DNA from: Stenomitos rutilans HA7619-LM2
Lineage (GTDB): Bacteria; Cyanobacteriota; Cyanobacteriia; Leptolyngbyales; Leptolyngbyaceae
Direction: 5' to 3'
DNA: 41,766 nucleotides
Assembly: GCA_019358945.1 (NCBI GenBank)
Contig: JAHHIE010000060.1
Span: 1 to 41,766 of the forward strand
Shown one piece after another: positions 8,541-40,415 of the stretch. The position numbers were made by a program, and so were the translations under genes. The notes under the pieces were generated by a model, which was not told where the DNA came from, made no database searches, and saw nothing but the letters and a program-made list of their open reading frames with translations. Positions within the stretch are counted from its first letter, which is position 1. Every line of letters begins with the position of its first letter.

Positions 8541-10718
8541 TTAGCGGCGGCTTTGCCCGTGATCTTTATCCCGGTTGGCTAATCCGGGTGGCAACGTCCC
8601 ATTGGGCGGGGGTGGGTTATCTTCTGCGTTTAGAAAGCTCAAGTCGAGTTCCGGCGCTGGCGGCGGGGTTACTGTAGGCATGTTGCCAGCATTGAATGAA
8701 GGCTTGATGCGCTGCTCGTCCCGTTGTTTTGCCTCGCGTCGCTGTTCTAGGCGCTGCATGATACTGGTGATGCCAAGACGCTTCCAATCTTCCCTATCCC
8801 AGAGGCGCAGCCGCTGATAGTGGTCAGGAGCCGCGAAGAAATCAGCGCACGCCTTATTTGGGGGTTGCAGGTTTTCCGCTAAAAATCTCAGCGGATAGGT
8901 GTGCTTGTGGGTGAAACGTGTTCGGTAATAGCCTGTAAGTCCCTGGTCGCTATCAATAGGGGGAATATTCAGGAACTCCGCAGGTAGAACGGTGCGCTCC
9001 GTGATAATTTGCTGGCTTTTGCCTGTGGGGTCGTTATAGCCGAACAGTTCACCCCCTTCGTCTTTATAAACTTTGGTTTTACGGTCTAGCTGTTGCTCTC
9101 CGATCGACTGCGCTGTCCACTCAGCGGTACGCGGCTCATCAAGGCGTAGCATTGCTTTATGGCGAAACTGTCCGGTGATCGCTTCACTCATGCCATCGCC
9201 ATAAATCCGCCGCAGGTCTTCCATCGACTGGAAGCCAACTACGAGGCACACGCCCTTGCTGCGTCCTCGTGTTGCCAGAGGGTGCAGTTTATCAATCTTG
9301 CCCAAGCCTGGTAACTCATCCAGCACAATGAATGTGCTGGGCGGCTGTCCCGAAGGCTGATCACGACCATTCAGCAGCAGTTGCGCGGCACGGGTGAAAA
9401 TCACGCGGTTGAGGGTGCTTAAGATTGTCTCTGCTTCATTATCTATTCCCAATACTAAAATACTGCTGCCTTGTACCCACTGTCGCAGGCTGATTTTATG
9501 CTCTGCTCGGTGCCAAAGGGCAGCGATCGTTCGATATTGCCCGATCTTGGTGGCAACCGTGGACATGATATTATCGGCGGTTTTTTCACTGCCTAGCACT
9601 TGCAGAAAATGGCGCGTGGCAGGATCTGAACCCAGCAACCCCACCGTCAATTCCAGAGATTGCAGCACAATTACCACATCCCGCAATGTCCACGCGCCGG
9701 GGGCATGACCGATAAAAAACTCGATCACGCCTTGGAACAATTGAATGGAGGCGGATCGAAAGAATTCGTCTTCTCTATCGCCTTCCCGTGGCACGAGGAT
9801 ATGGACGAGCGATTCAGCAGCGGCAAGGGTATTAATATCTGCCGCTATATCCCACGCATGGCAGCGATCATCAAACGGGTTCAGAATGCAGACTTTGGTT
9901 TGAAGACCCATGCCCGCAAGAATCGGCAGCATATTGCGCTGAGCGTCATAAATGATCGCTCGTTTGCGACTACCTTCAGTGATACGCGGCAATATATCCT
10001 GCATTAGTAGCCGTAATGTAACGGTTTTGCCGCTTCCCGAAGCGCCAGCGACTAAAAAATGGGTAACGGCTTCTGATTCAGGTATTCGTGCGCCGCCCCA
10101 TAAAAAACCAGGATTTTCCGGGGTTAATCGACCGCGATAATAGCGCTGCGTTTTGGCAACAGAAAGCAGTTGTGTCCCTCGCAAATGCCTATCATTGCTA
10201 GCTTCGCTGCTTAAGTAATTTCGCCCCACAAACCACGGGGCAAGCAGCCCCATTACAGTGCCAAGAAAGAAATGCATCAGGTAGGCAAGCGTCAAACAGA
10301 GCAGACCAATGCCCTGAAAAACGTAGTATGCTCGCAAACGCTCTTTGTTGTTCTGAAAAATTCTCTGCAATCGTAAGAAGGCTACCAACAGCATGTTTGC
10401 CACAACAAGCAGTAACAGCCAGCCATTAGCGGTTAAGTAGTACGGTTTCCACAAAATAACCTGCGGGTACAAGTCGTGCAATGAGGAATGAACACAATAC
10501 AAGACAACATTCATAAATGTTGGCTCTAACTGCGTTAGGGGGCGTAGGGCGTTTTGAGCGTTAACAATAGGCAGAACGACCAAGAACGTCCATAGAGCCA
10601 ATAATCCAGCGGTGGTGTACCAGTGGAAATTTCGTTTCTCGAAGCTGTTTGCAAGAAAATCTAAGGCTAGTTGGAGCCGCCACATACCAGTACCAGGTGA
10701 GGGACATGAAGAAGACAA
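8541..10718 (-). CDS. Type IV coupling protein (VirD4/TraG/TraD-like ATPase)
   Basis: A 725-aa inner-membrane DNA-pumping ATPase that would link the relaxosome to a secretion channel. Hydrophobic segments near residues 35-55, 98-118 and 135-165 form the N-terminal membrane part. Walker A is GASGSGKT at 225-232; Walker B is FIVLDELPG at 463-471 with D467-E468. The region after it (QFRHKAMLRLDEP) is typical of the family's RecA-like domain. A Pro-rich tail follows residue 680. The frame opens with TTG at 10718; an ATG at residue 12 (10685) is an alternative. No VirB/Tra channel genes are in the window, so transfer would need a helper plasmid. Confidence 0.92.
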   Translation of the reverse strand: MSSSCPSPGTGMWRLQLALDFLANSFEKRNFHWYTTAGLLALWTFLVVLPIVNAQNALRPLTQLEPTFMNVVLYCVHSSLHDLYPQVILWKPYYLTANGWLLLLVVANMLLVAFLRLQRIFQNNKERLRAYYVFQGIGLLCLTLAYLMHFFLGTVMGLLAPWFVGRNYLSSEASNDRHLRGTQLLSVAKTQRYYRGRLTPENPGFLWGGARIPESEAVTHFLVAGASGSGKTVTLRLLMQDILPRITEGSRKRAIIYDAQRNMLPILAGMGLQTKVCILNPFDDRCHAWDIAADINTLAAAESLVHILVPREGDREDEFFRSASIQLFQGVIEFFIGHAPGAWTLRDVVIVLQSLELTVGLLGSDPATRHFLQVLGSEKTADNIMSTVATKIGQYRTIAALWHRAEHKISLRQWVQGSSILVLGIDNEAETILSTLNRVIFTRAAQLLLNGRDQPSGQPPSTFIVLDELPGLGKIDKLHPLATRGRSKGVCLVVGFQSMEDLRRIYGDGMSEAITGQFRHKAMLRLDEPRTAEWTAQSIGEQQLDRKTKVYKDEGGELFGYNDPTGKSQQIITERTVLPAEFLNIPPIDSDQGLTGYYRTRFTHKHTYPLRFLAENLQPPNKACADFFAAPDHYQRLRLWDREDWKRLGITSIMQRLEQRREAKQRDEQRIKPSFNAGNMPTVTPPPAPELDLSFLNAEDNPPPPNGTLPPGLANRDKDHGQSRR

Positions 10719-14250: not shown

Positions 14251-14278
14251 CTACTTGTTAAGAATGTGGAAATTCGGC

Positions 14279-14287
14279 TTATCCACA
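14279..14287 (+). promoter_or_regulatory. DnaA box 1
   Basis: TTATCCACA, a perfect match to the consensus DnaA box. It begins 17 bases before iteron 1 begins (14296), the same spacing as box 2 to iteron 7. Confidence 0.8.
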
Positions 14288-14295
14288 GGTTGTTT

Positions 14296-14426
14296 TGTGC
14301 ATCGAAAGCCGTGCCTCTTGTGCATCGAAAGCCGTGCCTCTTGTGCATCGAAAGCCGTGCCTTGTGCATCGAAAGCCGCGCCTTTGTGCATCGAAAGCCG
14401 TGCTTTGGTGCACCGAAAGCCGTGCC
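14296..14426 (+). repeat. Iteron block of oriV: six 20-bp repeats
   Basis: Six direct repeats of TGTGCATCGAAAGCCGTGCC start at 14296, 14319, 14342, 14363, 14385 and 14407. Spacing is 21-23 bp, about two helical turns. Repeats 4 to 6 differ at one to three bases. They lie beyond the 3' end of the TrfA-family gene and are the expected binding sites for that initiator. Confidence 0.9.
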
Positions 14427-14466
14427 TTGGTTTTATGATGCGGTGTTTTGCGCCTAAAATCTTGAC

Positions 14467-14475
14467 TTATCCACA
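14467..14475 (+). promoter_or_regulatory. DnaA box 2
   Basis: A second TTATCCACA followed by GG, identical to box 1 and also 17 bases before the start of an iteron (14484). Confidence 0.8.
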
Positions 14476-14483
14476 GGTTTGTA

Positions 14484-14503
14484 TGTGCATCGAAAGCCGT
14501 GTC
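14484..14503 (+). repeat. Separate iteron 7
   Basis: TGTGCATCGAAAGCCGTGTC, one solitary iteron 77 bp after the start of iteron 6. Its last base is part of the stop codon of the TrfA-family gene (14503-14505 on the minus strand). Confidence 0.85.
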
Positions 14504-15321
14504 TACTCACTACGGGATAGAGTGGCAACTCGCGTGACTGTTACGGCATCGTCTTCAATGTTGTAGTTTTGCAAAAAACCTATTTTCACAAGCTCGTCTA
14601 AAGCGGTACGGGATTGTCGTTTGAAGCTCGCGGCTTGTGTATTTTTGCAGCCCGTCAGCCGTTGCAAGGTCGCAAGTTTTACCGGATACGGTGTGCGATG
14701 GCTGCTGTAATAGGCATGGAGGGCTTGTGCAAGAGATTTGCGGCGCAAGGCTAGGCGCTGTTCCCAGTCGATCGCCGTCCATTGGGATTCACCGTAAAGC
14801 CGAATCAGGTCACGGTTAAGCTCTATGGTGTAGTGGGCTGTCGGCTCGCTTTTTGTACCCGATTTGATCAGCGATCCAAAGTATATTTTGCCTTCGTGGA
14901 TGATCTCAACGGCTGTTGCGGTTAGCCGAATAATGGCTGAATGCAGTTGCCTGTGCTGCTCACCACCTGTTGGTAAGCGCATCGCTTTCAAAATCCCGTG
15001 CGCTGTGAAACTGCAATGGTTGCCTAAAGGGTGTTTTCTGGCTAGATGCACCAGGGTTTCCCAGAGCGTTAAATCTTCTTGGTTGAGCTGTTCGCCTGTG
15101 TATTTGACGGTGATACCCTGCTGGCTATAGAGCGTGGCTTCTTTCAAAGAACGCCGATCTTTGCCCTGAATTGCTGAAAACAAGGCGGATCGAATAAAAC
15201 TGTTTGGGGTGCCGCGCTTGGCTTCTTGCCATAGTGGGAGCTGGATAACTTGGGCGCTCGTCTGCACTTCAACAGCGCGGCGAAAAGACTGTAGGCTTTC
15301 ATCTAGCTTCTTGTCTGCCAT
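14503..15321 (-). CDS. trfA: TrfA-family plasmid replication initiator
   Basis: A 272-aa protein related to RK2 TrfA, the iteron-binding initiator of broad-host-range IncP plasmids. Recognisable blocks are LPLWQEAKRGTPNSFIRSAL (about 27-46), GITVKYTGEQLNQEDLTLWE (about 69-88), ARKHPLGNHCSFTAHG and a C-terminal winged-helix region (LQRLTGCKNTQAASFKRQSR). Its length matches the short TrfA forms. Iterons with two DnaA boxes lie immediately beyond its 3' end. It should bind the iterons and recruit host DnaB. Confidence 0.92.
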   Translation of the reverse strand: MADKKLDESLQSFRRAVEVQTSAQVIQLPLWQEAKRGTPNSFIRSALFSAIQGKDRRSLKEATLYSQQGITVKYTGEQLNQEDLTLWETLVHLARKHPLGNHCSFTAHGILKAMRLPTGGEQHRQLHSAIIRLTATAVEIIHEGKIYFGSLIKSGTKSEPTAHYTIELNRDLIRLYGESQWTAIDWEQRLALRRKSLAQALHAYYSSHRTPYPVKLATLQRLTGCKNTQAASFKRQSRTALDELVKIGFLQNYNIEDDAVTVTRVATLSRSE

Positions 15322-17350: not shown

Positions 17351-19231
17351 CTATCGCTCCTGTTCCCGGTCTATTTGCTGCTTGAGGATATGCGGCTCTG
17401 GGTTTGATGTCTGCGCCTGTTGCTCTTGTTCCCGTTTCGCTTTGGCGGCAATAACTTCGGGGTCTAGCAGGACTTTATCGACTGTTCGGTTAACATAGTC
17501 ATCGACGTGCCCCGCTTTGCGCTCGTGCAGGTTGGGGCTGGTCTCGCTTAAGGCGTGTTTGATCGCATCCGCGCTAAAGCCCAGCTTCGCCAGTTGCTTA
17601 CACACCGCCCAATCCATTCGGCTTGCGTCTTCGTTCGGGTGATGGTTTGTATGGCGCTGGTAAAATCTTTGGAACGTGGTGTCTGCCCGTTGTTTTTCGG
17701 AAGGGGTCGCGGCGGCTTTTTGATGGCTTTCTGATGGTGCCTGGTTCTCTTTTGGTGCCTTGGTAGCCTCCAGACGCTTGTCTGCTTCGGTGAGCAATTT
17801 CTGGGCGTTTACGGCGATTTTGCCGTGATAGCTTTCCAGCAGCACGTAGGGTTGGTTGCCGTCGGCGCGGGTGTGGATGCCTTTCTGATTGGTAAAGCCC
17901 GCTAAACGCCCGAAATGCCGCCAGTCCGCACTATTAGGATCGCCGCCGTAGCGTTCGGCTAAGATCTTCGCTGCTGCGGTTGCCTGTTCTTTGGGAATAG
18001 GTTGATCGCTGAGACGCACCCAGGCTTGATAGTTCATTGGGCTGGTTTGGGTAATGGCGGCAGGTTTAAGACCGTCCTTGCCCATGCGCTCAAAGCTGCC
18101 TAAGTCCAGGTCATCAACCAGAATTAACCCCGCGCTGCCCAACGGGCGGATGTATACGTCCCTACCTTGGCTGTTTAACCGCTTTAGCCAAGGCACCGAA
18201 TTTTTAACCTGGTCGCTTGCCCAGGTGCGGGTTAGCATTTTGCCTGTTTTGCTGTCCCTTAACCCTATTTCATACTGCTCTGCACCCATGCCTTGCAGTT
18301 GGCGGGTGATGCCTTGATAGGTGCGATCGCGCCGCTGGTTTACGGGCGGTGTGTCATCCTTGCCAAGGCTAGGCTGCTGTAATCCCGGTGCTGGCGGTGT
18401 AGGCTGTTTGGTCATGTCTTTTTCAATAGCAGAATGCAGCGGCTCCGCCACGGGCTTTTGCTCCCCTTGGCGGTGATTGTTCTGCTGTTGGGCAATCTGC
18501 TGTTCAATGTCTTGCAGTTCGCGGTTGATGGTGGCAATTCGCTGATACTGCTCGCCCCGTTCGGTGCTGATGACTAGGTTGTTACGCAGATCGCGCTTTA
18601 GCATCTTGTTCACTTTGGCTCCCAAGTGGATCTGGGGTAGCCGCTCAACGCCTTGTTCCTCCAAGCTGCGGTGGTCGATCCGCGCCTCATGCGCTGCTTG
18701 CTCAAGGGCGCAGTTTGTGTGCTGCGACCAGGCTTCCCGCCACTGCTGCAACAGGGCTTTTTCATTCCAGCTTCGGTTTTTGTTACCGAACCCATCTGCC
18801 CTAATTTCCCGCAAGGTCAGCAATACATGAGCATGAGGATTTTTCTTGTGCAGGTCGTGGTAAGCAATGTCCGCGATCATGCCTTTGCTGGTGAATTGCT
18901 CTTGCACATACTGCCGAACCAGTTCCATTTTCTGGTCATGGGTAAGCTCAATGGGTAGAGCGATGTCTATTTCCCGTGCCAGCTCTGCATCTTTGCGCTT
19001 CTCAGCGTGTTCAACTCCATTCCACAGTCTGGCGCGATCGCGCATCCATATTGGAGCATCGGAAGGAACTAGAATTTCCGTGGCATACACACCCCGCTTG
19101 CGGGTGTAGTCATGGGTAAGTCCCGTGCGCTCATCGTGGATTTCTTGCGCTGCCCGATACGCAGCAGCGCCCGTTGCAGTCCGTCCGGCACTGCGCTTAA
19201 TTTTGCTAACAGATAAATGGTAAATCGCCAT
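17351..19231 (-). CDS. mobA: MobA/MobL-family relaxase fused to a RepB-type primase
   Basis: A 626-aa protein. It starts MAIYHLSVSK, like RSF1010 MobA (MAIYHLTAK), with the likely catalytic Tyr at position 25 (AAAYRAAQ) and the metal-binding motif NPHAHVLLTLR at 131-141. A coiled linker (about 225-300) leads to a RepB-like primase domain (about 302-470) with VDDLD at 372-376 and SADWRHFGRLAGFTNQK at 434-450. A helical C-terminal region (about 510-605) follows. RSF1010 shows the same relaxase-primase fusion. The relaxase would nick oriT on the 5' side of its gene; the primase could prime the transferred strand. Confidence 0.93.
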   Translation of the reverse strand: MAIYHLSVSKIKRSAGRTATGAAAYRAAQEIHDERTGLTHDYTRKRGVYATEILVPSDAPIWMRDRARLWNGVEHAEKRKDAELAREIDIALPIELTHDQKMELVRQYVQEQFTSKGMIADIAYHDLHKKNPHAHVLLTLREIRADGFGNKNRSWNEKALLQQWREAWSQHTNCALEQAAHEARIDHRSLEEQGVERLPQIHLGAKVNKMLKRDLRNNLVISTERGEQYQRIATINRELQDIEQQIAQQQNNHRQGEQKPVAEPLHSAIEKDMTKQPTPPAPGLQQPSLGKDDTPPVNQRRDRTYQGITRQLQGMGAEQYEIGLRDSKTGKMLTRTWASDQVKNSVPWLKRLNSQGRDVYIRPLGSAGLILVDDLDLGSFERMGKDGLKPAAITQTSPMNYQAWVRLSDQPIPKEQATAAAKILAERYGGDPNSADWRHFGRLAGFTNQKGIHTRADGNQPYVLLESYHGKIAVNAQKLLTEADKRLEATKAPKENQAPSESHQKAAATPSEKQRADTTFQRFYQRHTNHHPNEDASRMDWAVCKQLAKLGFSADAIKHALSETSPNLHERKAGHVDDYVNRTVDKVLLDPEVIAAKAKREQEQQAQTSNPEPHILKQQIDREQER

Positions 19232-19436: not shown

Positions 19437-19488
19437 CATTGCGTTCCTTGGGGAGCGCAATGCAGGGGTGCAGGGGGTTCCCCCCTGC
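19437..19488. repeat. Two hairpins beside oriT
   Basis: CATTGCG (19437-19443) pairs with CGCAATG (19456-19462) with further TCC/GGA pairing inside. GCAGGGGG (19470-19477) pairs with CCCCCTGC (19481-19488) over a three-base loop. Both lie in the 448-base gap between the divergent relaxase and MobC-like genes. Confidence 0.6.
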
Positions 19489-19530
19489 CGCACTTACATC
19501 GCTTGCGATGTGTAAGTGCGCTCTTCACCT
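19489..19530 (+). other. oriT: oriT-like site with MobQ-type nick core
   Basis: TAAGTGCGCTCT (19513-19524) matches the RSF1010/R1162 nick-region core TAAGTGCGCCCT at all but one base. Just before it, GCACTTACATCG and CGATGTGTAAGTGC form an imperfect inverted repeat with a two-base bulge. In R1162 an inverted repeat also precedes the core on the nicked strand. The site lies between the relaxase gene and the MobC-like gene, where a MobQ oriT is expected. The exact nicked bond is not claimed. Confidence 0.75.
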
Positions 19531-19679
19531 CCTCGCTGGCGCTCAATGTTCGAGGGGCAGCCTGCGGCTGACGCGGCTTGCCGTTGCTCCTTTCTTCACA
19601 AGGTTTCCTGAATTTCTTGAAAGATTCGGAATAATTTTCTATAAATTCACTGAAATTCTGGCAACTAGGGAGAGGGCGT

Positions 19680-20102: not shown

Positions 20103-20144
20103 CGAAAACCAGAAAGCTGGTATACCAGCTTTCTGGTTTTCGCT
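20101..20144. repeat. 44-bp perfect palindrome
   Basis: The half AGCGAAAACCAGAAAGCTGG plus TA (20101-20122) is followed without a loop by its exact reverse complement (20123-20144). It contains CCAGAA, CTGGTATACCAG and TTCTGG, the motif found at the partition locus. It begins inside the stop codon of the MobC-like gene, so it could also act as a terminator. Confidence 0.85.
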
Positions 20145-20953: not shown

Positions 20954-21568
20954 TTAAGCATTGCGCGGTAATAGCTCGCGAATGACTTCAAGAAACTGCT
21001 TGGCGATCGGTATGGGCAACCAGTCACACTTCAGCCGTACCGTTTGTGAAAAGTAGGATGCATCCACATCCACATTGAACCCGCCGCCCGTGGCGCTGGT
21101 GGGCACATACAAAGAAGCGTTGTCTTTTGCCTCATACACCCGCACCTGATCGAGGCAATCAGCAAACACAGCGGTAAGCGTGGCAAAGTTTTTCTTGCCG
21201 CGCTCGCGTGTAGCGTCCTCTTCGTGTTTGATTGCCACGATCGCCGCCTTGAAGGTCTGAATGTAGTCACCTAAAAAACGGCGGATGATGTCTTTGGCGA
21301 TCGCCTCTGGTGGGCGGCGGTGTGAAACGCTGATTTCGGGTCTTTTATTGCCGTTTCGCGGGCTAACATTCGTTTCTGGGTATCTACCGTAAACGCGCAG
21401 GCGTTCCGGCTCACTATACCGACTGTGGCGCAATACAAAGGCTGCACCATCTTCGCGGGTAAAAGTAACAGCATCACAATGAAGCTCAAGAGCGAGTGTC
21501 CAGTCTGGAAAGTAGGCGGCGATCGCTTGAAACAATGCCGGGAAGTCCTGGGGGTCTTGCGTCTTCAT
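20954..21568 (-). CDS. Hypothetical protein with structured leader
   Basis: I place the start at ATG 21568 (MKTQDPQDFPALFQAIAAYF, 204 aa). The frame stays open a further 44 codons upstream, but that stretch is the conserved leader element, not protein. The product is soluble with an alpha/beta pattern and no family I recognise. Its leader is a relative of the one ahead of the J-domain gene, suggesting common control. A GC-rich inverted repeat lies in the short gap before the 20224-20877 gene. Confidence 0.75.
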   Translation of the reverse strand: MKTQDPQDFPALFQAIAAYFPDWTLALELHCDAVTFTREDGAAFVLRHSRYSEPERLRVYGRYPETNVSPRNGNKRPEISVSHRRPPEAIAKDIIRRFLGDYIQTFKAAIVAIKHEEDATRERGKKNFATLTAVFADCLDQVRVYEAKDNASLYVPTSATGGGFNVDVDASYFSQTVRLKCDWLPIPIAKQFLEVIRELLPRNA

Positions 21569-21588: not shown

Positions 21589-21781
21589 AAGGGTTAAGAA
21601 CGTCGTTCTGAACCCTTGCCCCTCGGCGAGAGTGGGGAGGCAAACGCAAGCCCGTAACAAGGGGGTGGGGCATCACCCTGTCTGCACGCAGCAAGTGCAA
21701 CGCAGCGAAGGAAGATAGGGGATACCCCTTTGTGTAGCCTGAAGGGTTGGCTTGCGTGCGCTAGGGGCAACGTCCCTTAGC
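21589..21781 (-). ncRNA. Candidate structured leader/RNA element, copy A
   Basis: About 193 nt upstream of the 21568 start, similar over its length to copy B at 24597-24780. Stem P1: AAGGGTT (21589-21595) with AACCCTT (21611-21617), then AGAAC with GTTCT, each arm broken by one mismatch. Long-range stem: ACGCAAGCC (21644-21652) with GGCTTGCGT (21749-21757). A terminal GGGG/CCC hairpin lies near 21764-21776. Both stems are kept by compensatory changes relative to copy B. I do not recognise an Rfam family. Strand is assumed from the flanking genes. Confidence 0.6.
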
Positions 21782-22034
21782 CCTGGAATTTACTGAATGA
21801 ACGGTTGACAGCAATGCGCGTCGCCGTCGGGAATTGGACAACCACAGGGGCGCAGGGCTTCGCCCTACTCAGAAAAAGGGTGCTTCGCACTTGCGGGAAG
21901 TTGCCACGACAGCAATGACTTTATGAAAGAATCCCGGATGGGGCACAGCGCCTAGCGTTTAATGCTGTAAGTACTTACCCGCCTGCTTTTATTGATATTC
22001 CTTGGCTTGAATAAACGCCATTTGGAGAAACCCT

Positions 22035-22121
22035 ATGTCCATACTGAGATCGAAAACAGTCTGCTTTTGCCTCGGGAGGAACTCCAACACCGCGATTCAG
22101 ATAGGAGTTGAGTTAGACTAA
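22035..22121 (+). CDS. Possible 28-aa small protein
   Basis: ATG at 22035 is preceded by GGAG with seven-base spacing. The 28-codon product begins MSILRSKTVCFCLGRNSNTA. A stem-loop (AAGCCGG with CCGGCTT, about 22120-22145) follows the stop directly. Apart from this and copy A, the 720-base gap 21569-22287 shows only a short GGGC/GCCC hairpin near 21851. Real-gene status is uncertain. Confidence 0.35.
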   Translation: MSILRSKTVCFCLGRNSNTAIQIGVELD

Positions 22122-22287
22122 GCCGGACGGTCGCCTGCCCGGCTTGCTTACAAAAATAAAAATCTTCAAAGTGACTGCTCCGCTGAGTTTAACCCCGATT
22201 ACTGGTAAATCTTTAGGTAAAATAAATTTATTCTTAGTAACATTACCGACATGTTATAACCGTGCTGAGTCCAAGTAAGCATCAATC

Positions 22288-23190
22288 ATGCCAAAAAGTT
22301 ACAGGCTTCTCATAGTAGCTCTTCTTGTTACAGCTTTCGCTGGCGGGTGTCGATCTACTGAAGAGTATCAAAAATTATCTGAGGCTGGTACAGCATATAC
22401 TAATGCTCTAGATAGTCTACTAACAGTTGCAGGTAACAAAAGGCTTGATGCAAGCTCCGAATTACTGCTAAAAAGTCGTGCCTTTGTACCTCAAACGATC
22501 GAGGACTACAAGAAGCGCACTACTGCTGACATTGAGAGACTCATTGTTCTTGAGGACATCCGTAGACATAATCAACTTCTGGCGCGTTATTTCGACCTAA
22601 TTAATCAACTGGCATCTTCTAATGCGCCTGAAACTGTTCAAAAAGAAATTGGAAGCACTGTTGATAGCCTCAATAAGGTTGGCAATAAATTGCGGGGTAG
22701 TGACTTTATCACGAATAAAGCAGCCATTCAAGGAATTGCTGGTCTTGTTGTCAGTGGTCAAATTCGAGGTGCCTTAGGCGAGGAACTGAGTAAGCGTAAA
22801 GATACAATCAATCTTGAATTTATCACGCAGAAAGAACTACTTCTAGCACTAAGTGAATCGCTACAACAAGACATAAAGGTGATAAAAGAGCAGCAAGAAT
22901 CACGCTTTGTTATTAAGCCCTTTGTCTCAACTACTACTGTTAACAACGCTCGTGCTTCTAGTCCGATTGATGATGACGGGTGGATTACTCAAAGAAGAAC
23001 TATTTTAACGATGGAGGCAACAGCAGCAGAGTTAGAAAGTGCTAGTAGCGCGATGAGTGAATTCAACGAGGTTTTCAAAGATTTTGTTGAAGGAAAGTTG
23101 AATCAAGGCAGACTTAACTCCCTTTTGTCTGACATTGAATCGTTTGTTTCGGTGGTTGAGAAACTGAAACCTAGTCAACTTAAGAACTAG
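22288..23190 (+). CDS. Lipoprotein with long helical domain
   Basis: A 300-aa protein with an n/h-region (KSYRLLIVALLVTAFAGG) and a lipobox Cys at position 21, so a probable lipoprotein. The mature part is almost entirely helical, with heptad-like segments at about 70-130 and 175-215. No family is recognised. It is AT-richer than the mobilisation genes. The next gene starts 37 bases after its stop behind a strong ribosome site, so the two likely form an operon. Confidence 0.8.
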   Translation: MPKSYRLLIVALLVTAFAGGCRSTEEYQKLSEAGTAYTNALDSLLTVAGNKRLDASSELLLKSRAFVPQTIEDYKKRTTADIERLIVLEDIRRHNQLLARYFDLINQLASSNAPETVQKEIGSTVDSLNKVGNKLRGSDFITNKAAIQGIAGLVVSGQIRGALGEELSKRKDTINLEFITQKELLLALSESLQQDIKVIKEQQESRFVIKPFVSTTTVNNARASSPIDDDGWITQRRTILTMEATAAELESASSAMSEFNEVFKDFVEGKLNQGRLNSLLSDIESFVSVVEKLKPSQLKN

Positions 23191-23227
23191 TACAAGAGTC
23201 GATTTTTAATGGTGGAGGAACTTCAGG

Positions 23228-23668
23228 ATGACAAGAAAGCGTGATAAAATTGTTGAGGGATTCTTTGAGGAAGAAGTACTATCAGTCTTTGGAAGATCAA
23301 TTGCTTTTGAAGGTCGTCTATCCACAGAGTTTGATGAGTTAAAGAAAAAGCTAGACAGCGACCTTAAAGATCTGCGTGAGAAAGAATTAAAGCTCTTTTC
23401 TGATGAAGTTGAAGGTGCCTTTGCAGGCAAATCTGAAGACGAAAGGAAAAAATTTGACCAGTATAGAGCAGAACTTAGCATTACGCGAGAAAAATTGGAA
23501 ACTGAAATATTTGCTAAAATTGCAGGTCGATTTAAAACACTTTCAGGAGAGCTAGAAAAAGGAATCGAAGCTTTAAAGGTTGACATCGAAAGTGTGAAAA
23601 AAACAACTCAGTTTTTTGAAACTCTAGCTCGCGTTGTTGGCATTATTGCTCGAATTCTTGTACTTTAA
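23228..23668 (+). CDS. Coiled-coil protein with hydrophobic C-terminus
   Basis: ATG at 23228 follows GGAGGA nine bases upstream. The 146-aa product is highly charged and helical, with coiled-coil segments at about 25-65 and 75-125, and ends in a hydrophobic segment (ARVVGIIARILVL). Second gene of a pair with the lipoprotein. The pair could span the envelope, lipoprotein outside and coiled coil inside; this is inference. No family is recognised. Confidence 0.75.
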   Translation: MTRKRDKIVEGFFEEEVLSVFGRSIAFEGRLSTEFDELKKKLDSDLKDLREKELKLFSDEVEGAFAGKSEDERKKFDQYRAELSITREKLETEIFAKIAGRFKTLSGELEKGIEALKVDIESVKKTTQFFETLARVVGIIARILVL

Positions 23669-23754
23669 TGTGAGTGCCCGTCATGCCCGATCAAAGCAAG
23701 CCCTATCCATAGCTTTGCAATGCCAAGTGGTAGCAGTTGTATAAAGCAACCGCG

Positions 23755-24012
23755 CTAGCCGTTCGATCGCCCATTTTGCCTGCTTAACCAGTCCTGTCGG
23801 GTAGCCTTCCAGAAAGGCCAGGATGTGCCGTCCTCAATAATGATGCGGTTGATCGTTGCGCCATCTAGCGCGACCGTTACCTGGAAGGGGAACCAATCCC
23901 CATAGACATAATAGTCCTGGCGGATTTGCTCCAAGTTGAGGCTGTATTCGCCTTCCAACGCGATCACAATCAAGCCTTCTAAAGCCTCTCTCGATCCGGG
24001 GTTTATAGCCAA
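23755..24012 (-). CDS. Small hypothetical protein (85 aa)
   Basis: The frame has no internal Met; the likeliest start is TTG at 24012 (MAINPGSREALEGLIVIALE). The product has an alpha/beta look and ends in RQDWLSRQNGRSNG. It follows the J-domain gene on the same strand, separated by an inverted repeat of the CCAGAA/CTGGT type. Function unknown; moderate confidence because of the unusual start. Confidence 0.55.
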   Translation of the reverse strand: MAINPGSREALEGLIVIALEGEYSLNLEQIRQDYYVYGDWFPFQVTVALDGATINRIIIEDGTSWPFWKATRQDWLSRQNGRSNG

Positions 24013-24015
24013 AAA

Positions 24016-24068
24016 ACTGGTATGCCAGAAAACCAGAAAGCTGGTATTATTGTAAACCAGCTTTCTGG
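24016..24068. repeat. CTGGTATT/CCAGAA site cluster with 13-bp inverted repeat
   Basis: CTGGTATG (from 24018) and GCCAGAAAACCAG precede the perfect repeat CCAGAAAGCTGGT (24033-24045) / ACCAGCTTTCTGG (24056-24068), ten-base loop. The arms share CCAGAAAGCTGGT with the 44-bp palindrome at 20101. It is also placed to act as a terminator for the J-domain gene. Confidence 0.7.
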
Positions 24069-24089
24069 AAGGCTCTGCCGCAGCAATCC

Positions 24090-24581
24090 TTAAGCGGTGG
24101 TGGGAATATTTTCCCTATCTGCTGTTTGAAAGCCTTGGTAGCCGTACTTTTTCGCTAATTCACCTAGGCTGCCTTTAGACCTTTTGCTCTTCTTCCAACC
24201 TGCTGGCTTGTAGTACCATTGCTTGCGCTCGCTATGCCATTGCAATCCGGCATCCTTCAAAGCGGCGCGGTTGCTTTTGGTATCTCCAGAAACCCAGATC
24301 CAGTAACCGATTAGGGCAATCTCTAGTGAGCGTAATTTCAGCAGTTCTAGCAGCTTATTCATAATCTCATTTTCAACCGCTTCTTTATACCGATAGGGTT
24401 TTTCGCTGTTCTCACCTACCCTGCCCTCGCTGCTTTTCAAGGCTTCGTGGTACTGGCGGTTGATTTCTTTCATGCTGTCCTCATTCCCGCCTCTGTCGGG
24501 GTGATGTTGCATTGCAAGAGTACGGTACAGGCTCTTAATGGCTTCAACGGTTTTTGTATTGATAAAGTAATTGATGGTCAT
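24090..24581 (-). CDS. J-domain (DnaJ-like) protein
   Basis: I place the start at ATG 24581 (163 aa), after AGGA at good spacing; the longer open frame upstream is the leader element. Residues about 8-50 (VEAIKSLYRTLAMQHHPDRG) are a J domain with its HPD motif, which stimulates Hsp70 ATPase. The C-terminal part (GLQWHSERKQWYYKPAGWKK) resembles the DUF5710-like fold seen in plasmid proteins. It might recruit host DnaK to plasmid replication or mobilisation proteins. Confidence 0.85.
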   Translation of the reverse strand: MTINYFINTKTVEAIKSLYRTLAMQHHPDRGGNEDSMKEINRQYHEALKSSEGRVGENSEKPYRYKEAVENEIMNKLLELLKLRSLEIALIGYWIWVSGDTKSNRAALKDAGLQWHSERKQWYYKPAGWKKSKRSKGSLGELAKKYGYQGFQTADRENIPTTA

Positions 24582-24596
24582 TTTCAGTTTCCTTTC

Positions 24597-24780
24597 AGGG
24601 GTTGAGAACATCGCGTTCTGAACCCCTGCCCCTCGGCGAGAGTGGAGGAGGCAAAAGCAAGCCCGAAGCAGCGGAAGGGGTATCGCCCAGGCTGCACAAA
24701 CACCGTGCGGAAGCTTGGGGATGCCGATGCGTAGCTTGAAAGGTTGGCTTGCTTGCGCCAGGGGGCAACGTCCCCTTAGC
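24597..24780 (-). ncRNA. Candidate structured leader/RNA element, copy B
   Basis: About 184 nt directly ahead of the J-domain gene's ribosome site. Stem P1: AGGGGTT (24597-24603) with AACCCCT (24621-24627), then AGAAC with GTTCT over a five-base loop. Long-range stem: AAGCAAGCC (24655-24663) with GGCTTGCTT (24746-24754). Conserved blocks with copy A include the segment around GCCCCTCGGCGAGAGTGG and the terminal GGGGCAACGTCCC hairpin. Substitutions in the stems are compensatory. Could be a riboswitch-like leader, an independent RNA, or a mobile palindromic element. Confidence 0.6.
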
Positions 24781-24783
24781 AAA

Positions 24784-24950
24784 CTGGTATTCTGGTATTC
24801 TGGTTTGCTGTTAAACCTGAATACCGAAAAACTGGAATGCAATAAAACTGGTTTACCATTTAGCCAGAAACCATAAGTCTGGTATTCTGGTATTCTGGCA
24901 GCTTTGTTCAGAAAGCCAGAATACTGGTAAACCAGAAAGGGAGAAAACCA
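24784..24950. repeat. Partition-site-like octamer array (candidate parS)
   Basis: Two identical 20-bp blocks, CTGGTATTCTGGTATTCTGG, lie at 24784-24803 and 24879-24898, each made of CTGGTATT octamers in tandem. Between and after them are variants (CTGGAATG, CTGGTTTA, CCAGAATACTGGTAAACCAG). Short tandem repeats ahead of a small ParA and an RHH partner gene are the classic layout of type Ib partition centromeres, which also serve as the operator. The array ends right at the ParA start codon. Confidence 0.8.
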
Positions 24951-24951
24951 G

Positions 24952-25545: not shown

Positions 25546-25808
25546 TGAGTGGTAAGTTCGGCGATTTAATCCGCAAAGCCAGAGAAACGGAGCAACAACC
25601 AGAAGACCAGAATACTGGCAAGCCAGAAACCCAGAAGACCAGTCAAGAGGTTGCGCTGGTGGCTGAAAAGGAAAAAGATGTGAATTTGTCCATTAAGGTG
25701 CCTGAATCATTGCGCCGCCACTGGGCAGCAGAGTCAAAACGAATTGGCGTTAGCATGACAGCCGCGATTATTGAAGCCTTGACAGAAAGGTTTGGTACGC
25801 CGAAGTAG
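25545..25808 (+). CDS. Ribbon-helix-helix ParB-like centromere-binding protein
   Basis: An 87-aa protein. The unstructured N-terminal half leads to a ribbon-helix-helix domain (VNLSIKVPESLRRHWAAESK, then SMTAAIIEALTERFG; about 45-85). Position and size fit the ParG/omega class that binds tandem repeats and stimulates ParA. Unusually, the gene itself contains CCAGAA/CTGG motifs (25597-25645), so part of the binding array may lie inside its coding region, where it encodes the disordered tail. Confidence 0.88.
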   Translation: MSGKFGDLIRKARETEQQPEDQNTGKPETQKTSQEVALVAEKEKDVNLSIKVPESLRRHWAAESKRIGVSMTAAIIEALTERFGTPK

Positions 25809-27249: not shown

Positions 27250-27291
27250 CATAGAACCATAAAACCAGAATTCTGGTTTTATGGTTCTATG
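27250..27291. repeat. 42-bp perfect palindrome
   Basis: Perfect dyad centred between 27270 and 27271, core AAAACCAGAATTCTGGTTTT, with no loop. It shares CCAGAA/TTCTGG with the partition array. It lies between two convergent genes and includes the last codons of the winged-helix gene, so it could serve as a bidirectional terminator. Confidence 0.85.
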
Positions 27292-28196
27292 GTTTTATTT
27301 TTCAGTTTTACAAATTCCTTGAGTTCAGTCATTGGAAACATCCCGCTAAACTCTTCCCACACTTCTTGCTTATCGAGGTTGGTGTAAACATACTGCACAC
27401 CGTCCAGCATGGTTGCGCCACGGACAAGCCCGATCGCGCTGGCTAGGTCATACCATTCGTTGAAGCCAGGAGGGGCACTGCGCTGTTTTTCATTTCCAGC
27501 GCTGCTGTTGGAGCCTAATGCAGTGTTTTGCCTGCTATTGGGTTGCCATTGGTTTTCTATGGCTTGGCGCAAGAAACCAGCGGGGTTTTTGACCCGTCCG
27601 TTTTGCATCCGCTCCTTGAGGGCGGCGATCGCGTCTTTGACGGCTGTGGTTGTTGCAGAAACAACCACCTTGATGAGGTGTGGATTCAGCCTTACGCCTG
27701 TTTGTTCGGCTTCTGTTAATAATTCTTGATACGCTGGGTATTGCGTTTCTGGCTGACTTGTGTGGCTTTCATCCTGTTTTTCTGTAACAGGGTGGTGGGT
27801 GGGTTCTTCTGTCTGTTTGCTTTGAAATTCTCTGTTAGAGGGAACCGAGGAATGCGGGTTTGCGGGGCTTTTTTCGGAAGTTTTCTGCTGGTGAAAGGAA
27901 GATTCCTGCCTGTTTAAAGAAGTTTGCTGCCCTGGATGCCAAGCAATGAGCTTGTAGATCCGTCCTGAATAGCGCCTTACCACTTCAACCAAACCGTAGT
28001 CTACGAGCTGACCAAAGGCGATTTTTACCCACTTGAGGCTGTAGCCTGCCCATGTTTGAAACTCATCCAGTATGACTTCCTGGGACTTTCCTGCGGGGAC
28101 AGCCCTGAGAAGCCAGCGGTACAGGTGTCCGGCACAGGGCGTTAATTCAAGGGCAAGCTGATCATGCTGTTCCGTAATCCTTGCGAAAGCAGTCAT
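27279..28196 (-). CDS. Winged-helix domain protein of plasmid type
   Basis: A 305-aa protein. Residues about 18-88 (AGHLYRWLLRAVPAGKSQEV, then KWVKIAFGQLVDYGLVEVVR) form a winged helix-turn-helix. A Ser/Gln/Pro-rich disordered linker (about 90-150) joins a second helical part (about 155-225) and a short C-terminal domain. Architecture resembles plasmid replication or regulatory proteins in cyanobacteria but I cannot name it. It does not look like a second replication initiator with its own iterons. Confidence 0.7.
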   Translation of the reverse strand: MTAFARITEQHDQLALELTPCAGHLYRWLLRAVPAGKSQEVILDEFQTWAGYSLKWVKIAFGQLVDYGLVEVVRRYSGRIYKLIAWHPGQQTSLNRQESSFHQQKTSEKSPANPHSSVPSNREFQSKQTEEPTHHPVTEKQDESHTSQPETQYPAYQELLTEAEQTGVRLNPHLIKVVVSATTTAVKDAIAALKERMQNGRVKNPAGFLRQAIENQWQPNSRQNTALGSNSSAGNEKQRSAPPGFNEWYDLASAIGLVRGATMLDGVQYVYTNLDKQEVWEEFSGMFPMTELKEFVKLKNKTIEP

Positions 28197-30516: not shown

Positions 30517-31623
30517 ATGCATACTGCCACCTTTTACCCGATTGGAAATGCTGACACCTGTTTTATCGAACTTGGTAATGGACGGCGTATTCTTTTTGAC
30601 TACGCAAACACTTACGATCCAAACGATGAGAAAGACAAAAGGATTGATCTCGAAAAAGAAATCCGCAGAGCGTTTGGCAGTAATAAAGAAACCGATGTTT
30701 TAGCACTGTCACATCTTGATAGGGATCATTACAAGGGGGTAACTGAGCTTTTTTGGCTAGAGCATGATGATAAGTTTAAGTCTGATAACCGAATTAAAGT
30801 TAAGACTTTATGGGTTCCAGCATCTGCTATTCTTGAAGAAAATCTTAAAGATGAGGGTGTAATTCTTCGTGCTGAGGCGCGTCATCGCTTAGAGAAAGGT
30901 GAAGGAATTCAAGTCTTCTCAAACCCGAATGCATTAGATGATTGGTTGAAGGACAAGAAAATTAATCCAGACGATCGCCAGGATTGCATCACTCACGCTG
31001 GTGAGCCAGTGCCAGGATTCTCACTCGCAAGTGATGGTGCTGAATTTTTTGTTCATTCGCCTTTTTCTGAACGCTGTGAGGATGAAAGCCTCGTTGTACG
31101 AAATGCGTCAGCGCTTTTTATGCAAGTTACGTTTGAGGTAGATGGAAGAAAAACTCGTCTTATACTGTCGGCAGATTGCCCATACGAGGAAATTGAAGCA
31201 ATTGTCAGAGTAACTAAGAAACATCAGAATGAAGATTGGCTGAAATGGGATATAAATAATATTCCTCACCACTGTTCTTATCTCTCTCTCTCGGATGAGA
31301 AAGGTGATAAAAAGACAATACCTACAGATAATGTAAGATGGTTGTATGAGGAACAGGGGGAAGAATTTGGATTATTAGTTTCAACAAGCAACCTGATTCC
31401 TACCGAGGATACGGTTCAGCCACCGCACAAGCAAGCTGCGGCTTATTATGAAGATGTTGCGACCAAGCTTCATGGTGAATTTCTTGTCACGATGAATGAG
31501 CCGAAATCAGCTTCTCCAAAACCCCTTATTATCGAAATTACAGGTTCAGGCTATAAGGTAAAAAAATCTATATCCTCACCTGCAATAGCCATAACTACTA
31601 ACAAACCACCGCGTGCCGGATGA
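30517..31623 (+). CDS. ComEC-like metallo-beta-lactamase-fold protein
   Basis: A 368-aa protein. The N-terminal part (YPIGNADTCFIELGNGRRIL) and H66-L-D68-R-D70-H71 (SHLDRDHYKG) are the start of an MBL fold of the ComEC-type branch. LSADCP (about 214-219) and IPHHCSYLSL (about 249-258) supply the later metal ligands. It could be a hydrolase or nuclease. The last 15 residues (about 354-368) form a flexible tail ending PPRAG, with glycine as the last residue. Its stop overlaps the next ATG (ATGA at 31620). See the findings for the idea that it is a conjugation partner. Confidence 0.88.
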   Translation: MHTATFYPIGNADTCFIELGNGRRILFDYANTYDPNDEKDKRIDLEKEIRRAFGSNKETDVLALSHLDRDHYKGVTELFWLEHDDKFKSDNRIKVKTLWVPASAILEENLKDEGVILRAEARHRLEKGEGIQVFSNPNALDDWLKDKKINPDDRQDCITHAGEPVPGFSLASDGAEFFVHSPFSERCEDESLVVRNASALFMQVTFEVDGRKTRLILSADCPYEEIEAIVRVTKKHQNEDWLKWDINNIPHHCSYLSLSDEKGDKKTIPTDNVRWLYEEQGEEFGLLVSTSNLIPTEDTVQPPHKQAAAYYEDVATKLHGEFLVTMNEPKSASPKPLIIEITGSGYKVKKSISSPAIAITTNKPPRAG

Positions 31624-33878
31624 AACTAAGATTACTGTCAGGCGATATAATATCGCCGGAGAAACTACGTTCTCCTCGTGCAGTAGCCCTTCATCGTTAT
31701 TTAAATACTAGGCATTCTCTCTATTTCCAACTAATTGAATGTCTAGCTACTGAGCGTCTTGATACACTTGTGGTACAAGTCAGTATTGAGGTTTATCAAC
31801 ACCGTACTATTGATATTAGACCAAAGGAAATATTAGCGATTTCATTTGTCAGTGATAGGGATACCTTACCTATTTTCTATCCATTAAGGCTCGATTTTCC
31901 AATTGATCTTGTCCATATAATGGTTGATTGGAATGAAGAGTATCCAAGTCTTTGTTTATGGGAAGAACCATTTGAGGATCTTCGTTCTAGGCTTACGCCC
32001 TATCTACTTCTTGCACGGCTAAAAGAATGGCTTGAGCAGACGGCTGATGGAACATTGCACGATGATAAACAACCATTAGAACCTGTTTTACTAGGCAATA
32101 ACGATCAAATTATTATCCCAGTGGACGCAACCGCGTCTGGGAAAAAATATGTTGCCCTCAGCTCGGAGAATGCTCAAGGGCAGTCAACTCTTTGCTTTGT
32201 AGAACAGAATAAGTTGGGGAAAGATGAAAAGCCTGGTTTTGTTTTAGCTGGGTTTACGACTCCTCCGATTACGCATCGGGCTGTAAAATATGCTCCTCGA
32301 AATCTTGAGCAATTGTATAACCTTTTACATGAGATTAAATTTGACATAAAGGCAGAATTAACAAAATGGATACAACAGATAAAATCATACGAAGATTTAG
32401 TAGAAGCCCGTCTGGTAATTTTGATTGAATTTCCGAAAAAGCGGACGGAAATAGGAGCAGTTGAATCAACTGAAAGTTGGGCTTTCATCACAATACAATC
32501 AATAGCAGATATTGGTGAAGCACTCGGTACGCTTGTTGATGCTGGCTCATATGGTATTCCAGCTATGGGAATTGTGATTAGCCCAAATACCATTAATTCT
32601 GATTTGGAAAAGTTTGAGATCTATGCACTTGCAGTTCGACGTGAGTTATCGAGCGAAACCTTATCAGTTCTCTCTGGTTATGGTGAAGAGACACGACCTT
32701 CTATTGCAGCTATCGGAGCTGGAGCCTTAGGATCGAAAATAATAGAGCTTGCAGTTCGTTGTGGCTTTGGTCAATGGTCAGTAATTGATAAAGATATTTT
32801 TTTACCACATAATTTTGTAAGACATGTACTCGGTGTCTGGGCAGTGGGAAGACTTAAAGTCAATGCACTTCAGAGTTTTGTTAACAGCTTGGTTCCTAAC
32901 AACCCAGTACGTAGAATCGTTGTCGCTGATGTAATGGCTCGCCAAAATAATCAGGAGATAGATGAGGTATTTATCAACGCTGATCTAATCCTTGATATGT
33001 CAGCATCTGTATCAGTTTCACGTCAATTGTGTGAACACGTAGTTAGCAAAAGGCGTGCGTCACTTTTTTTAAGTCCCAGTGGTAAAGATATTGTGCTTCT
33101 TCTTGAAGATGTTGAGCGAACAGCTTCTCTTTGGGATTTGGAAGGCATATATTACAAAGCACTCGTTAATGAAAGTTTATTACAAGGGCACCTCACTGAT
33201 GAGGATGCACCAACCCGTTATGGAAATGGTTGCCGTGATTTGACAGCTCGAATTAGCGCTGATCAAGTTTCTACTTTAGCTGGTATTGGGCTTCGGCAGC
33301 TTATTCAGCAGTACAAGACTTTAAACAGTTCGGCGACTATCTGGCGTTCAAATTTGCAAAATGGTGAGGTAAAGGCACTCAATTTATTAGTTACCCCAGG
33401 AATTGAAATTCAACTCGGTGACTGGTGTGTTCGCTGGAATAAGGGCTTACTTGATGAGCTAGTTACCCAGCGGTCAGGGAGCCTACCTGATGAAACAGGC
33501 GGTGTTTTAGTGGGAATTGTAGATTTTGAACATAGGAAGGTAGTGGTGGCAGCCGACATCCCGGCTCCACCCGATAGCGTGAAGCGACCGCACTATTTTG
33601 AGCGTGGAGTAACAGGGTTGAACGATACTCTAGTAGAAACAGCACGCAAGTCAGCAGGACAGCTTAGGTATATTGGTGAATGGCATTCTCATCCCAATGG
33701 TGTAGCGGCACGTCCTAGCAATGATGATGAAGGTGTTTTCACGAAACTTGGCGAAGTATTTGATGAAACAAATGAGTTCTACCTAATGGCTATTCTTGGA
33801 GCTAATGAGTTATTTGCTCGCATGGGTTTAGATGGAAATATTCAAGAAGGAAGTATCCCATTACTAAACGAAAATTAA
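31620..33878 (+). CDS. E2-E1-JAB triple-fusion ubiquitin-like conjugation enzyme
   Basis: A 752-aa protein carrying all three activities of a conjugation cycle. Residues about 1-165 are a prokaryotic E2-like domain with candidate Cys at 112 (YPSLCLWEEP) and the family's TADGTLHDD-type tail. Residues about 350-580 are a ThiF/E1 adenylating domain: GAGALGSK at 366-373, RHVLGVWAVGRLK, and a likely E1 thioester Cys at 538 (NGCRDLT). Residues about 600-745 are a JAB/JAMM isopeptidase: E625 (ETGGVLVG), H689-S-H691-P, S700 and D703. CBASS Cap2 is E2-E1 and Cap3 is JAB; here they are one chain and no cGAS-like cyclase is nearby. Acts in the cytosol. Confidence 0.9.
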   Translation: MKLRLLSGDIISPEKLRSPRAVALHRYLNTRHSLYFQLIECLATERLDTLVVQVSIEVYQHRTIDIRPKEILAISFVSDRDTLPIFYPLRLDFPIDLVHIMVDWNEEYPSLCLWEEPFEDLRSRLTPYLLLARLKEWLEQTADGTLHDDKQPLEPVLLGNNDQIIIPVDATASGKKYVALSSENAQGQSTLCFVEQNKLGKDEKPGFVLAGFTTPPITHRAVKYAPRNLEQLYNLLHEIKFDIKAELTKWIQQIKSYEDLVEARLVILIEFPKKRTEIGAVESTESWAFITIQSIADIGEALGTLVDAGSYGIPAMGIVISPNTINSDLEKFEIYALAVRRELSSETLSVLSGYGEETRPSIAAIGAGALGSKIIELAVRCGFGQWSVIDKDIFLPHNFVRHVLGVWAVGRLKVNALQSFVNSLVPNNPVRRIVVADVMARQNNQEIDEVFINADLILDMSASVSVSRQLCEHVVSKRRASLFLSPSGKDIVLLLEDVERTASLWDLEGIYYKALVNESLLQGHLTDEDAPTRYGNGCRDLTARISADQVSTLAGIGLRQLIQQYKTLNSSATIWRSNLQNGEVKALNLLVTPGIEIQLGDWCVRWNKGLLDELVTQRSGSLPDETGGVLVGIVDFEHRKVVVAADIPAPPDSVKRPHYFERGVTGLNDTLVETARKSAGQLRYIGEWHSHPNGVAARPSNDDEGVFTKLGEVFDETNEFYLMAILGANELFARMGLDGNIQEGSIPLLNEN

Positions 33879-38157: not shown

Positions 38158-38790
38158 ATGGCGGCAAACAGCAACGCACCTACACCCACAGACACAACGG
38201 AGCAGAAGCGGCGATCGCCCAATGCCCGCAAATATGCAGACGTGCGATCGCGCGAACATCTGTTGCCGGATGAAGTGGATATGATGCTGGCGGCAATTAA
38301 AAAGAGCAATGGCAAACACGCCCACCGGGACGCAACCTTGATCCTGCTTTTGTACCGTCATGGGTTGCGCGTTTCCGAAGCAGCCGCACTGAAATGGGAA
38401 CAAGTGGACTTCAACGGCACAACCCTGCACGTTACCCGCGCCAAGCGCGGCACACCGTCCACCCAGCCGCTCTATGGGGATGAGCTGCGAGCGCTTCGCA
38501 AGCTCAAGCGCGATTATCCCGCTTCAACCTATATTTTTACGTCATCTCGCAAAGCGCCACTCGCGAAAGACACGATCGGCGGCATCATTGAAAAAGCAGG
38601 TGAACTGGCTGGGCTACCATTCCCAGTTCACCCCCACATGCTCCGCCATGCCTGCGGCTATTATCTGGCGGCAGAAAAAGGCGTGGATACCCGCACGGTG
38701 CAAGCCTATCTGGGGCACCGAAATATTCAGCATACGGTGCGCTATACCGCTCTTTCACCGAAACCATTTAAGGGATTGTGGGACGATTGA
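38158..38790 (+). CDS. Tyrosine recombinase (short, FimB-like)
   Basis: A 210-aa protein that is essentially a lone catalytic domain: R71 (HGLRVSEAA), H160-x-x-R163 (HPHMLRHACG), H187 (LGHRN) and nucleophile Y196 (RYTALS). It lacks the N-terminal arm-binding domain of phage integrases, like FimB/FimE. Its 3' 150 bases recur as a broken copy at 40262. Could resolve plasmid multimers or move adjacent cargo. Confidence 0.92.
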   Translation: MAANSNAPTPTDTTEQKRRSPNARKYADVRSREHLLPDEVDMMLAAIKKSNGKHAHRDATLILLLYRHGLRVSEAAALKWEQVDFNGTTLHVTRAKRGTPSTQPLYGDELRALRKLKRDYPASTYIFTSSRKAPLAKDTIGGIIEKAGELAGLPFPVHPHMLRHACGYYLAAEKGVDTRTVQAYLGHRNIQHTVRYTALSPKPFKGLWDD

Positions 38791-40261: not shown

Positions 40262-40415
40262 CACATGCACCGCCATGCCTGCGGCTACTACCTGGCGGCG
40301 GAAAAGGGTATTGATACCCGCACTGTGCAAGCCTATCTGGAACACCGAATATTCAGCATACCTGCGCTATACCGCCCTCTCACCGCATCCATTTAAGGGG
40401 CTGTGGGATGATTGG
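40262..40415 (+). pseudogene. Fragment of a tyrosine recombinase gene
   Basis: Matches bases 38635-38790, the 3' end of the recombinase gene, at most positions. Two single-base deletions (in the CCGAATATTC and CATACCTGCGC segments) break the frame, the GH motif reads EH, and the stop codon is lost. No 5' part is present. Confidence 0.88.

Follow-up and report, generated by a model that had tools for sequence, protein, structure and literature searches.

A folded element ahead of leading-region genes in a cyanobacterial plasmid-like contig: probably a widespread promoter formed by single-stranded DNA

The stretch of DNA analysed here (the window) comprises 41,766 nt from Stenomitos rutilans HA7619-LM2 (contig JAHHIE010000060.1, positions 1 to 41,766 of the forward strand), a plasmid-like contig, which is contig 52 of the 7.28-Mb genome. 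On its plus strand, it carries two copies of a folded element of ~190 nt, at 21589-21781 (copy 1) and 24597-24780 (copy 2). The fold is very probably formed by single-stranded DNA (ssDNA), namely the transferred strand (T-strand) of conjugation, and we consider it likely that the element class is a new and widespread ssDNA promoter of leading regions, found on conjugative and mobilizable plasmids. A more specific version, which we hold with slightly more confidence than doubt, is that of a phylum-spanning ssDNA promoter unrelated to the Frpo promoters of plasmid F, in which the folded core (internal loop, inner stem and GNA-capped tip) would recruit RNA polymerase of the host without relying on canonical sigma boxes and would switch on anti-restriction genes in cells, cyanobacteria among them, that receive MOBQ and MOBP plasmids.

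The original prediction, made from the window alone, had placed an unrecognised element at these two positions, just ahead of a hypothetical gene and a J-domain gene, and all of this was borne out. The two copies align with 76% identity (E 1.3e-28), and their folded strand, in both cases the plus strand, is the predicted T-strand, with starts ~2.07 kb (copy 1) and ~5.08 kb (copy 2) from the predicted nic site. Copy 1 lies 20 nt ahead of the start codon (21568) of a minus-strand open reading frame (ORF) of 204 aa with no Pfam match (20954-21568), whose template strand is the predicted T-strand, and copy 2 lies 15 nt ahead of the start codon (24581) of the J-domain gene, also on the minus strand (24090-24581, 163 aa; DnaJ, PF00226, E 1.1e-05, below the Pfam cut-off). 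Read on the plus strand from the gene outward, the element comprises hairpin A, which lies by the ribosome-binding region, then hairpin B, a long stem with interruptions and, last, a terminal hairpin. In copy 1, hairpin A is predicted at 21589-21617, adjoining the gene start. Hairpin B, CTC-GGCGA-GAG with the common pentaloop, is found at 21622-21632 and 24632-24642 on the plus strand, and in both copies the minimum-energy fold pairs this region somewhat differently; across the family, a G[GC]CGA pentaloop on a paired, varying 3-bp stem occurs in 77 of 105 distinct members, a count without a chance control. The long stem is interrupted by an internal loop (A-GGGGnATCr opposite GAnA), followed by an inner stem, CCCnGnCT/AGnnnGGG, ending in TGCAC...GGA. 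This conserved core of long stem, internal loop and inner stem spans 21651-21739 in copy 1 (60.6 bits, E 4.1e-13, with the covariance model R1) and 24661-24737 in copy 2 (50.3 bits, E 2.2e-10), both copies being among the 89 de-replicated members from which R1 was built. Both strands of both copies fold better than most dinucleotide shuffles, as DNA (z-scores of -2.5 to -3.0, with 0 to 3 of 200 shuffles as good) and as RNA (-2.9 to -5.2). No further copies were found in the same genome by sequence or R1 searches, and blastn of the gene behind copy 1 against plasmids gave no match. Membership in an Rfam family was considered and rejected, as no family reached its gathering score in the window and, of the nine matches up to E 10 in the two stretches with the copies, none overlaps a copy (seven lie over CCAG repeats and two beyond copy 1).

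The element belongs to a widespread family. When used as a query against plasmid records, copy 1 gave weak matches, including Thiothrix, Paracoccus and Sphingobium; among the 39 records matched, 37 have no feature under the match, one has ArdC and one is unannotated, the gene table of the collection being incomplete. An exact pattern of the core was found in at least 118 genome stretches, and a Paracoccus member searched against plasmids at E 0.01 matched 81 records in whole or in part (18 of them covering at least 80% of the query), of which MOB-suite typed 31 as conjugative, 19 as mobilizable and 31 as non-mobilizable. The hosts are mostly Proteobacteria and also cyanobacteria, with other phyla represented by the labels of metagenome-assembled genomes, in which contamination was unchecked. 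Up to six copies are found per plasmid. R1 identified the element in 3 of 388 genomes of the class of the window, its own genome included, and, in the class to which a Novosphingobium member belongs, in 15 of 385 genomes, counting that member. In the 42 genomes of the family of the window, only its own genome and a single 31-nt match (L004), unconfirmed by R1, were recovered; a weak blastn match in Nostoc CENA543 (L133) was equally unconfirmed, and a Pseudomonas member used as a query found no match in 5,426 E. coli genomes. A phage origin was considered: 2 of 2.9 million viral contigs contain a shorter core pattern, one of which is confirmed by R1 (L128, 66.8 bits) and the other not (L129), and phage records gave two weak 30-nt matches (E 0.6). 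We found no description of this element in the open literature consulted, subscription papers, preprints and supplements being outside that search.

Some of the family statistics are shaped by the way in which the members were gathered. Since the stretches were collected by an exact pattern, all 27 invariant positions of the model alignment are fixed by that pattern and give no independent evidence of conservation; likewise, five of the eight inner pairs are invariant due to it. The outer helix, inner positions 3 and 5, hairpin B, the terminal hairpin and the gene spacing were left free. After duplicates and copies too near contig ends were dropped, the 130 instances yielded 124 distinct ones, and then 123 members, 102 outer helices, 103 copies for gene spacing and 68 de-replicated proteins; all family counts include the two copies of the window.

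Between the two window copies, the original prediction had pointed to compensatory changes, and those are present in the sequence: the pair G24598-C24626 has A21590-T21616 as its counterpart, and A24656-T24753 has C21645-G21756. Two such changes in two copies are weak alone. The covariance search found further covarying members, favouring a real element: in the R1 alignment 88.7% of cells are paired, and 324 cells carry double changes against 105.4 ± 7.8 after shuffling, a value reached in none of 500 shuffles. The outer helix, unfixed by the search pattern, holds 305 of these 324 cells, and when the partners are slid by one to three columns, pairing falls to 32-58%.

Non-canonical pairs were used to assign the folded strand. 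A wobble on the folded strand reads as G-T, while a wobble on the opposite strand, if that one were folded, would read here as A-C. Considering the non-canonical pairs flanked by Watson-Crick pairs in the 102 distinct outer helices, the plus strand shows 33 G-T against 8 A-C, or 27 against 8 when distinct contexts are counted (binomial p 0.0001 and 0.002, respectively, uncorrected for relatedness, these being cells in related sequences and not independent events). At inner position 3, which is free of the pattern on both sides, 55 of the 123 distinct members have G-T, and A-C does not occur. Given this excess, the fold lies on the plus strand, that is, the template of the genes and complementary to the mRNA. 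Our confidence that it is a fold of the T-strand as ssDNA, although high, was lowered slightly because the invariant core is wholly fixed by the search pattern.

The hairpin loops were compared with mononucleotide shuffles. GNA triloops are found in 54 of 97 apical loops on at least two pairs (7.3 in shuffles, maximum 14) and in 10 of 97 on at least three (1.5, maximum 5); among the 123 terminal regions, 33 have one on four or more pairs (2.5, maximum 7). Any 3-nt loop is also enriched (85 of 97 versus 48.5). GNRA tetraloops are present in only 3 of 97 (4.6 in shuffles) and 4 of 123 cases (1.2, maximum 5), and TNCG tetraloops in 2 of 97 (0.4, maximum 2) and 0 of 123. To our knowledge, GNA triloops are not special in RNA. 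In a study on DNA mini-hairpins, those with GNA loops are described as extraordinarily stable, and GNNA loops are also listed among the stable DNA hairpins (PMC4686876). As GNNA loops are thus stable in DNA too, the rarity of GNRA is by itself no argument for DNA.

The position of the element relative to genes is narrowly defined. In 92 of 103 copies, an ORF of at least 80 aa with an ATG start is found at 70-180 nt from the core on the strand opposite to it, whereas the other side of the core has such an ORF in 22 of 103 and random positions in 28-31%. For the 99 copies with an ORF of at least 60 aa, sought within the same 70-180 nt, the distance from core to ATG has a median of 101 nt and an interquartile range of 96-106.5. 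A tie between each copy and the gene behind it is therefore supported. The 68 distinct proteins encoded behind the element include ArdC (17), ArdA (10), ParB_N (6), DUF932 (4), N6_N4_Mtase (4), DUF3768 (4) and DnaJ (2), a list rich in leading-region and anti-restriction families. The two with DnaJ presumably come from the J-domain gene of the window and a gene of Nostoc sp. CHAB 5715 (L035), whose product resembles the window protein at its N-terminus and which also stands behind its own copy of the element.

The T-strand was predicted from nic-like motifs. In the window, a predicted origin of transfer (oriT) core on the plus strand (19485-19535) consists of an inverted repeat, ACATCGC/GCGATGT, followed by TAAGTGCG/CTCT, with nic predicted between 19520 and 19521. 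It matches 11 of 12 positions of the RSF1010 nic, given as TAAGTGCG/CCCT in the literature (PMC4814116). With two mismatches allowed, nic-like matches are expected by chance in the window, and weight was therefore put on the hairpin (z -4.45) and on the adjacent gene (17351-19231, minus strand), which encodes a MOBQ-type relaxase (MobA_MobL, PF03389, E 3.1e-74) fused to a RepB primase domain (PF16793, E 1.4e-33); blastn of the oriT region returned nothing informative. The nic motif lies upstream of the relaxase and makes the plus strand the predicted T-strand, with a leading region extending rightward of nic and both copies predicted inside it. Nine replicons were included in the nic tests (the window, L009, L130, L131, L132, L139, L140, L141 and L144, of which L009, L141 and L144 are stretches of larger plasmids), and L006-L008, L142 and L143 were left out. 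Six replicons besides the window have a nic-like motif adjoining relaxase or mobC genes: RP4-like TATCCTGC in L131, L009, L139 and L141, TAAGTGCG in L144 and a weak ATCCTGA in L132. Across these seven replicons, the predicted T-strand carries 13 of the 14 copies found. Moreover, all copies lie on one strand in 34 of 37 contigs with several copies, by a hand tally in which some plasmids are related and one pair stands 545 kb apart in a chromosome. All copies are opposite to the relaxase strand in L130 (6 of 6) and L140 (5 of 5). The orientation of the relaxase gene was also tried as a test of the T-strand and was too mixed to decide: among 22 same-contig pairs, tallied by hand with contigs taken as linear, element and relaxase are on opposite strands in 13, and the element points away from the relaxase in 15.

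We infer the following sequence of events from the computed fold, its strand, its predicted position on the T-strand and its tie to gene starts. During transfer, the plus strand would enter the recipient as ssDNA from the predicted nic near 19520, and each copy would fold on the incoming strand into hairpin A, hairpin B, the long interrupted stem and the terminal hairpin. The folded DNA would probably be recognised as a promoter by RNA polymerase, leading to early transcription of the minus-strand gene behind the copy with the T-strand as template. Once the complementary strand is made, the fold would be lost and the promoter presumably turned off.

The main rival explanation is priming, in which the folded T-strand, as an ssi site, would recruit primase, primosome or RNA polymerase for the synthesis of the complementary strand; it could coexist with a promoter. 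Strand, fold and region are as expected of ssi sites, the absence of sigma70-like boxes above chance fits as well, and the title of the 1997 report on Frpo by Masai and Arai names both transcription and primer RNA synthesis. Priming, however, needs neither the narrow spacing to the start codon nor one copy before each of several genes, and we regard it as unlikely. The original prediction had argued for a functional RNA (a leader or a trans-acting RNA) instead of a simple duplication. The functional, conserved fold stands, with its covariation; the RNA leader is less well supported, since the wobble strand, the GNA triloops and the predicted T-strand fit DNA better. A structured 5' leader of the mRNA, acting as a riboregulator, would account for the start codon found immediately downstream in 92 of 103 copies, and the minus strand too folds better than most shuffles, but the wobble pairs are on the other strand (33 versus 8 and 55 versus 0), on which ground this reading was rejected as the main one; in addition, the GNA loops would read TNC on the mRNA and the predicted T-strand position would go unexplained, leaving the leader very improbable.

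We attribute the same very low probability to an RNA of the plus strand, antisense or trans-acting and transcribed away from the gene. It would show the same wobble signature as the ssDNA fold, and the plus strand folded as RNA gives the most extreme z-score of each copy (-5.24 for copy 1 and -3.19 for copy 2). Its promoter, however, would need to sit at or inside the gene start, wobble G-T cells are rare in the outer helix (39 of 1068), and GNRA tetraloops are rare where GNA triloops abound. Finally, the presence of up to six copies per plasmid could suggest mobile or repeat DNA, similar to miniature inverted-repeat transposable elements, or a protein-binding site in double-stranded DNA with no role as ssDNA. 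This we consider highly improbable, given the covariation, the narrow spacing and fixed orientation to genes, the preference of the copies of a contig for one strand and the 37 of 39 matched plasmid records without a feature under the match, in an incomplete gene table.

Several observations weigh against the proposed ssDNA promoter. The RNA folding scores just mentioned are among them, and the predicted folds of both window copies have no GNA apical loop. Without the flank filter, the excess in the outer helix is weaker (47 G-T against 22 A-C). A scan of 122 members for a sigma70-like box pair within the element gave a best score of 6.35 of 12, compared with 6.66 in shuffles; the 400-nt regions ahead of two leading genes of F likewise scored no more than 7 of 12. 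As for the transfer strand, the nic sites were called by motif from a permissive list, with no estimate of how many matches chance would give. The match in L132 is weak, L131 also has a second, though weak, match (ATCCTG), located on its other strand, and no nic-like motif was found in the annotated plasmids L130 and L140, which are related to each other. One copy (L009, 504-582) departs from the T-strand rule: it is near a nic-like site but lies on the strand opposite to the predicted T-strand, preceding a MerR-type gene that is read away from oriT. Three of the 37 multi-copy contigs are mixed in strand, the relaxase tallies (13 and 15 of 22) are not uniform, and 31 of the 81 typed plasmid records are non-mobilizable.

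The closest parallels are Frpo of F and ssi of ColIb-P9, which likewise are large T-strand folds of leading regions, placed immediately before genes whose template is the T-strand, present in more than one copy per plasmid and with anti-restriction, ParB-like, DUF932 and SSB genes nearby. In the records of F and ColIb-P9, the types of leading-region genes are the same as those behind the element, F having ssb, psiB, a ParB-like gene and DUF932. Frpo1 and Frpo2 of the F leading region are reported to fold as single-stranded DNA, to be required for early expression in the recipient and to be off once the DNA is duplex; such expression from incoming ssDNA has been shown for F and is backed by evidence for ColIb-P9 (PMC9849209). 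Anti-defence genes with Frpo-like promoters are described in the leading regions of many elements (PMC11541004). Two surveys identified Frpo-type promoters through BLAST searches that used known or derived sequences and, in a few islands, through resemblance to Frpo in structure and boxes (PMC11541004, PMC12826799). The element is ~190 nt long, whereas the two F regions share 548 aligned nt. The best R1 score in stretches of F (24 kb), R100 (30 kb) and ColIb-P9 (93 of 93.4 kb) was 12.2 bits (E 0.55). Considering this absence of an R1 match and of a sigma70-like pair above chance, the element appears to work like Frpo, by analogy, and yet not to be Frpo by sequence. In ColIb-P9 (L147), we also observed two very similar large T-strand folds upstream of 34105 and 26469, ahead of ardA and of another antirestriction gene; they may be the known ssi elements and offer a good yardstick.

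Two other systems were compared. The STAXI motif of Weinberg et al. (2010) is also a conserved structure near SSB, integrase and antirestriction genes, for which the authors considered a role as ssDNA; in contrast to the element, whose copies match no Rfam family, STAXI consists of tandem pseudoknots, often with UUCG loops, for which its authors preferred RNA (PMC2864571). The EGeRS of pLS20-type plasmids resemble the element as regulatory sequences common to several establishment operons, but a role as ssDNA promoter is deemed highly unlikely by their authors, partly since the nicked strand is the non-template one (PMC8708921).

If the ssDNA promoter reading is correct, the element would be a second class, defined by structure and occurring in Alphaproteobacteria as well as other Proteobacteria and cyanobacteria, and would extend zygotic anti-defence expression far beyond enterobacteria. 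The covariance model would then mark leading regions, transfer direction and candidate anti-defence genes, for instance those at 20954-21568 and 24090-24581. The element would, moreover, be an unusual instance of strong covariation in a fold that is apparently DNA and not RNA.

Other features of the window concern the replicon itself. An identical 127 bp is present at both ends (1-127 and 41640-41766), which makes a closed circular plasmid of ~41.6 kb probable. It encodes a TrwB/TraD-type coupling protein (8541-10718, minus strand, by Pfam) and a TrfA-type replication protein (14503-15321). Beside the latter, at 14278-14504, seven short direct repeats of the CATCGAAAGCCGTGCCT type are candidate iterons of the replication origin. 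Repeats of the CCAGAATACTGGTTT type, scattered round a ParA-like gene (20105-20140, 24013-24072, 24778-24951, 25592-25642 and 27253-27296), are candidate partition or operator sites. At 30517-33878, an ORF without a Pfam match is followed by a fused Prok-E2_A/ThiF/Prok-JAB protein, an arrangement like those of bacterial ubiquitin conjugation and possibly a defence system. Possible defence genes are also those for a TIR-domain protein (40521-41492) and a YhcG/DUF1016 nuclease (37109-38125). Finally, part of a gene that appears tyrosine recombinase-like by eye (38635-38789) recurs 1.6 kb onward (40262-40414) with 87-88% identity.

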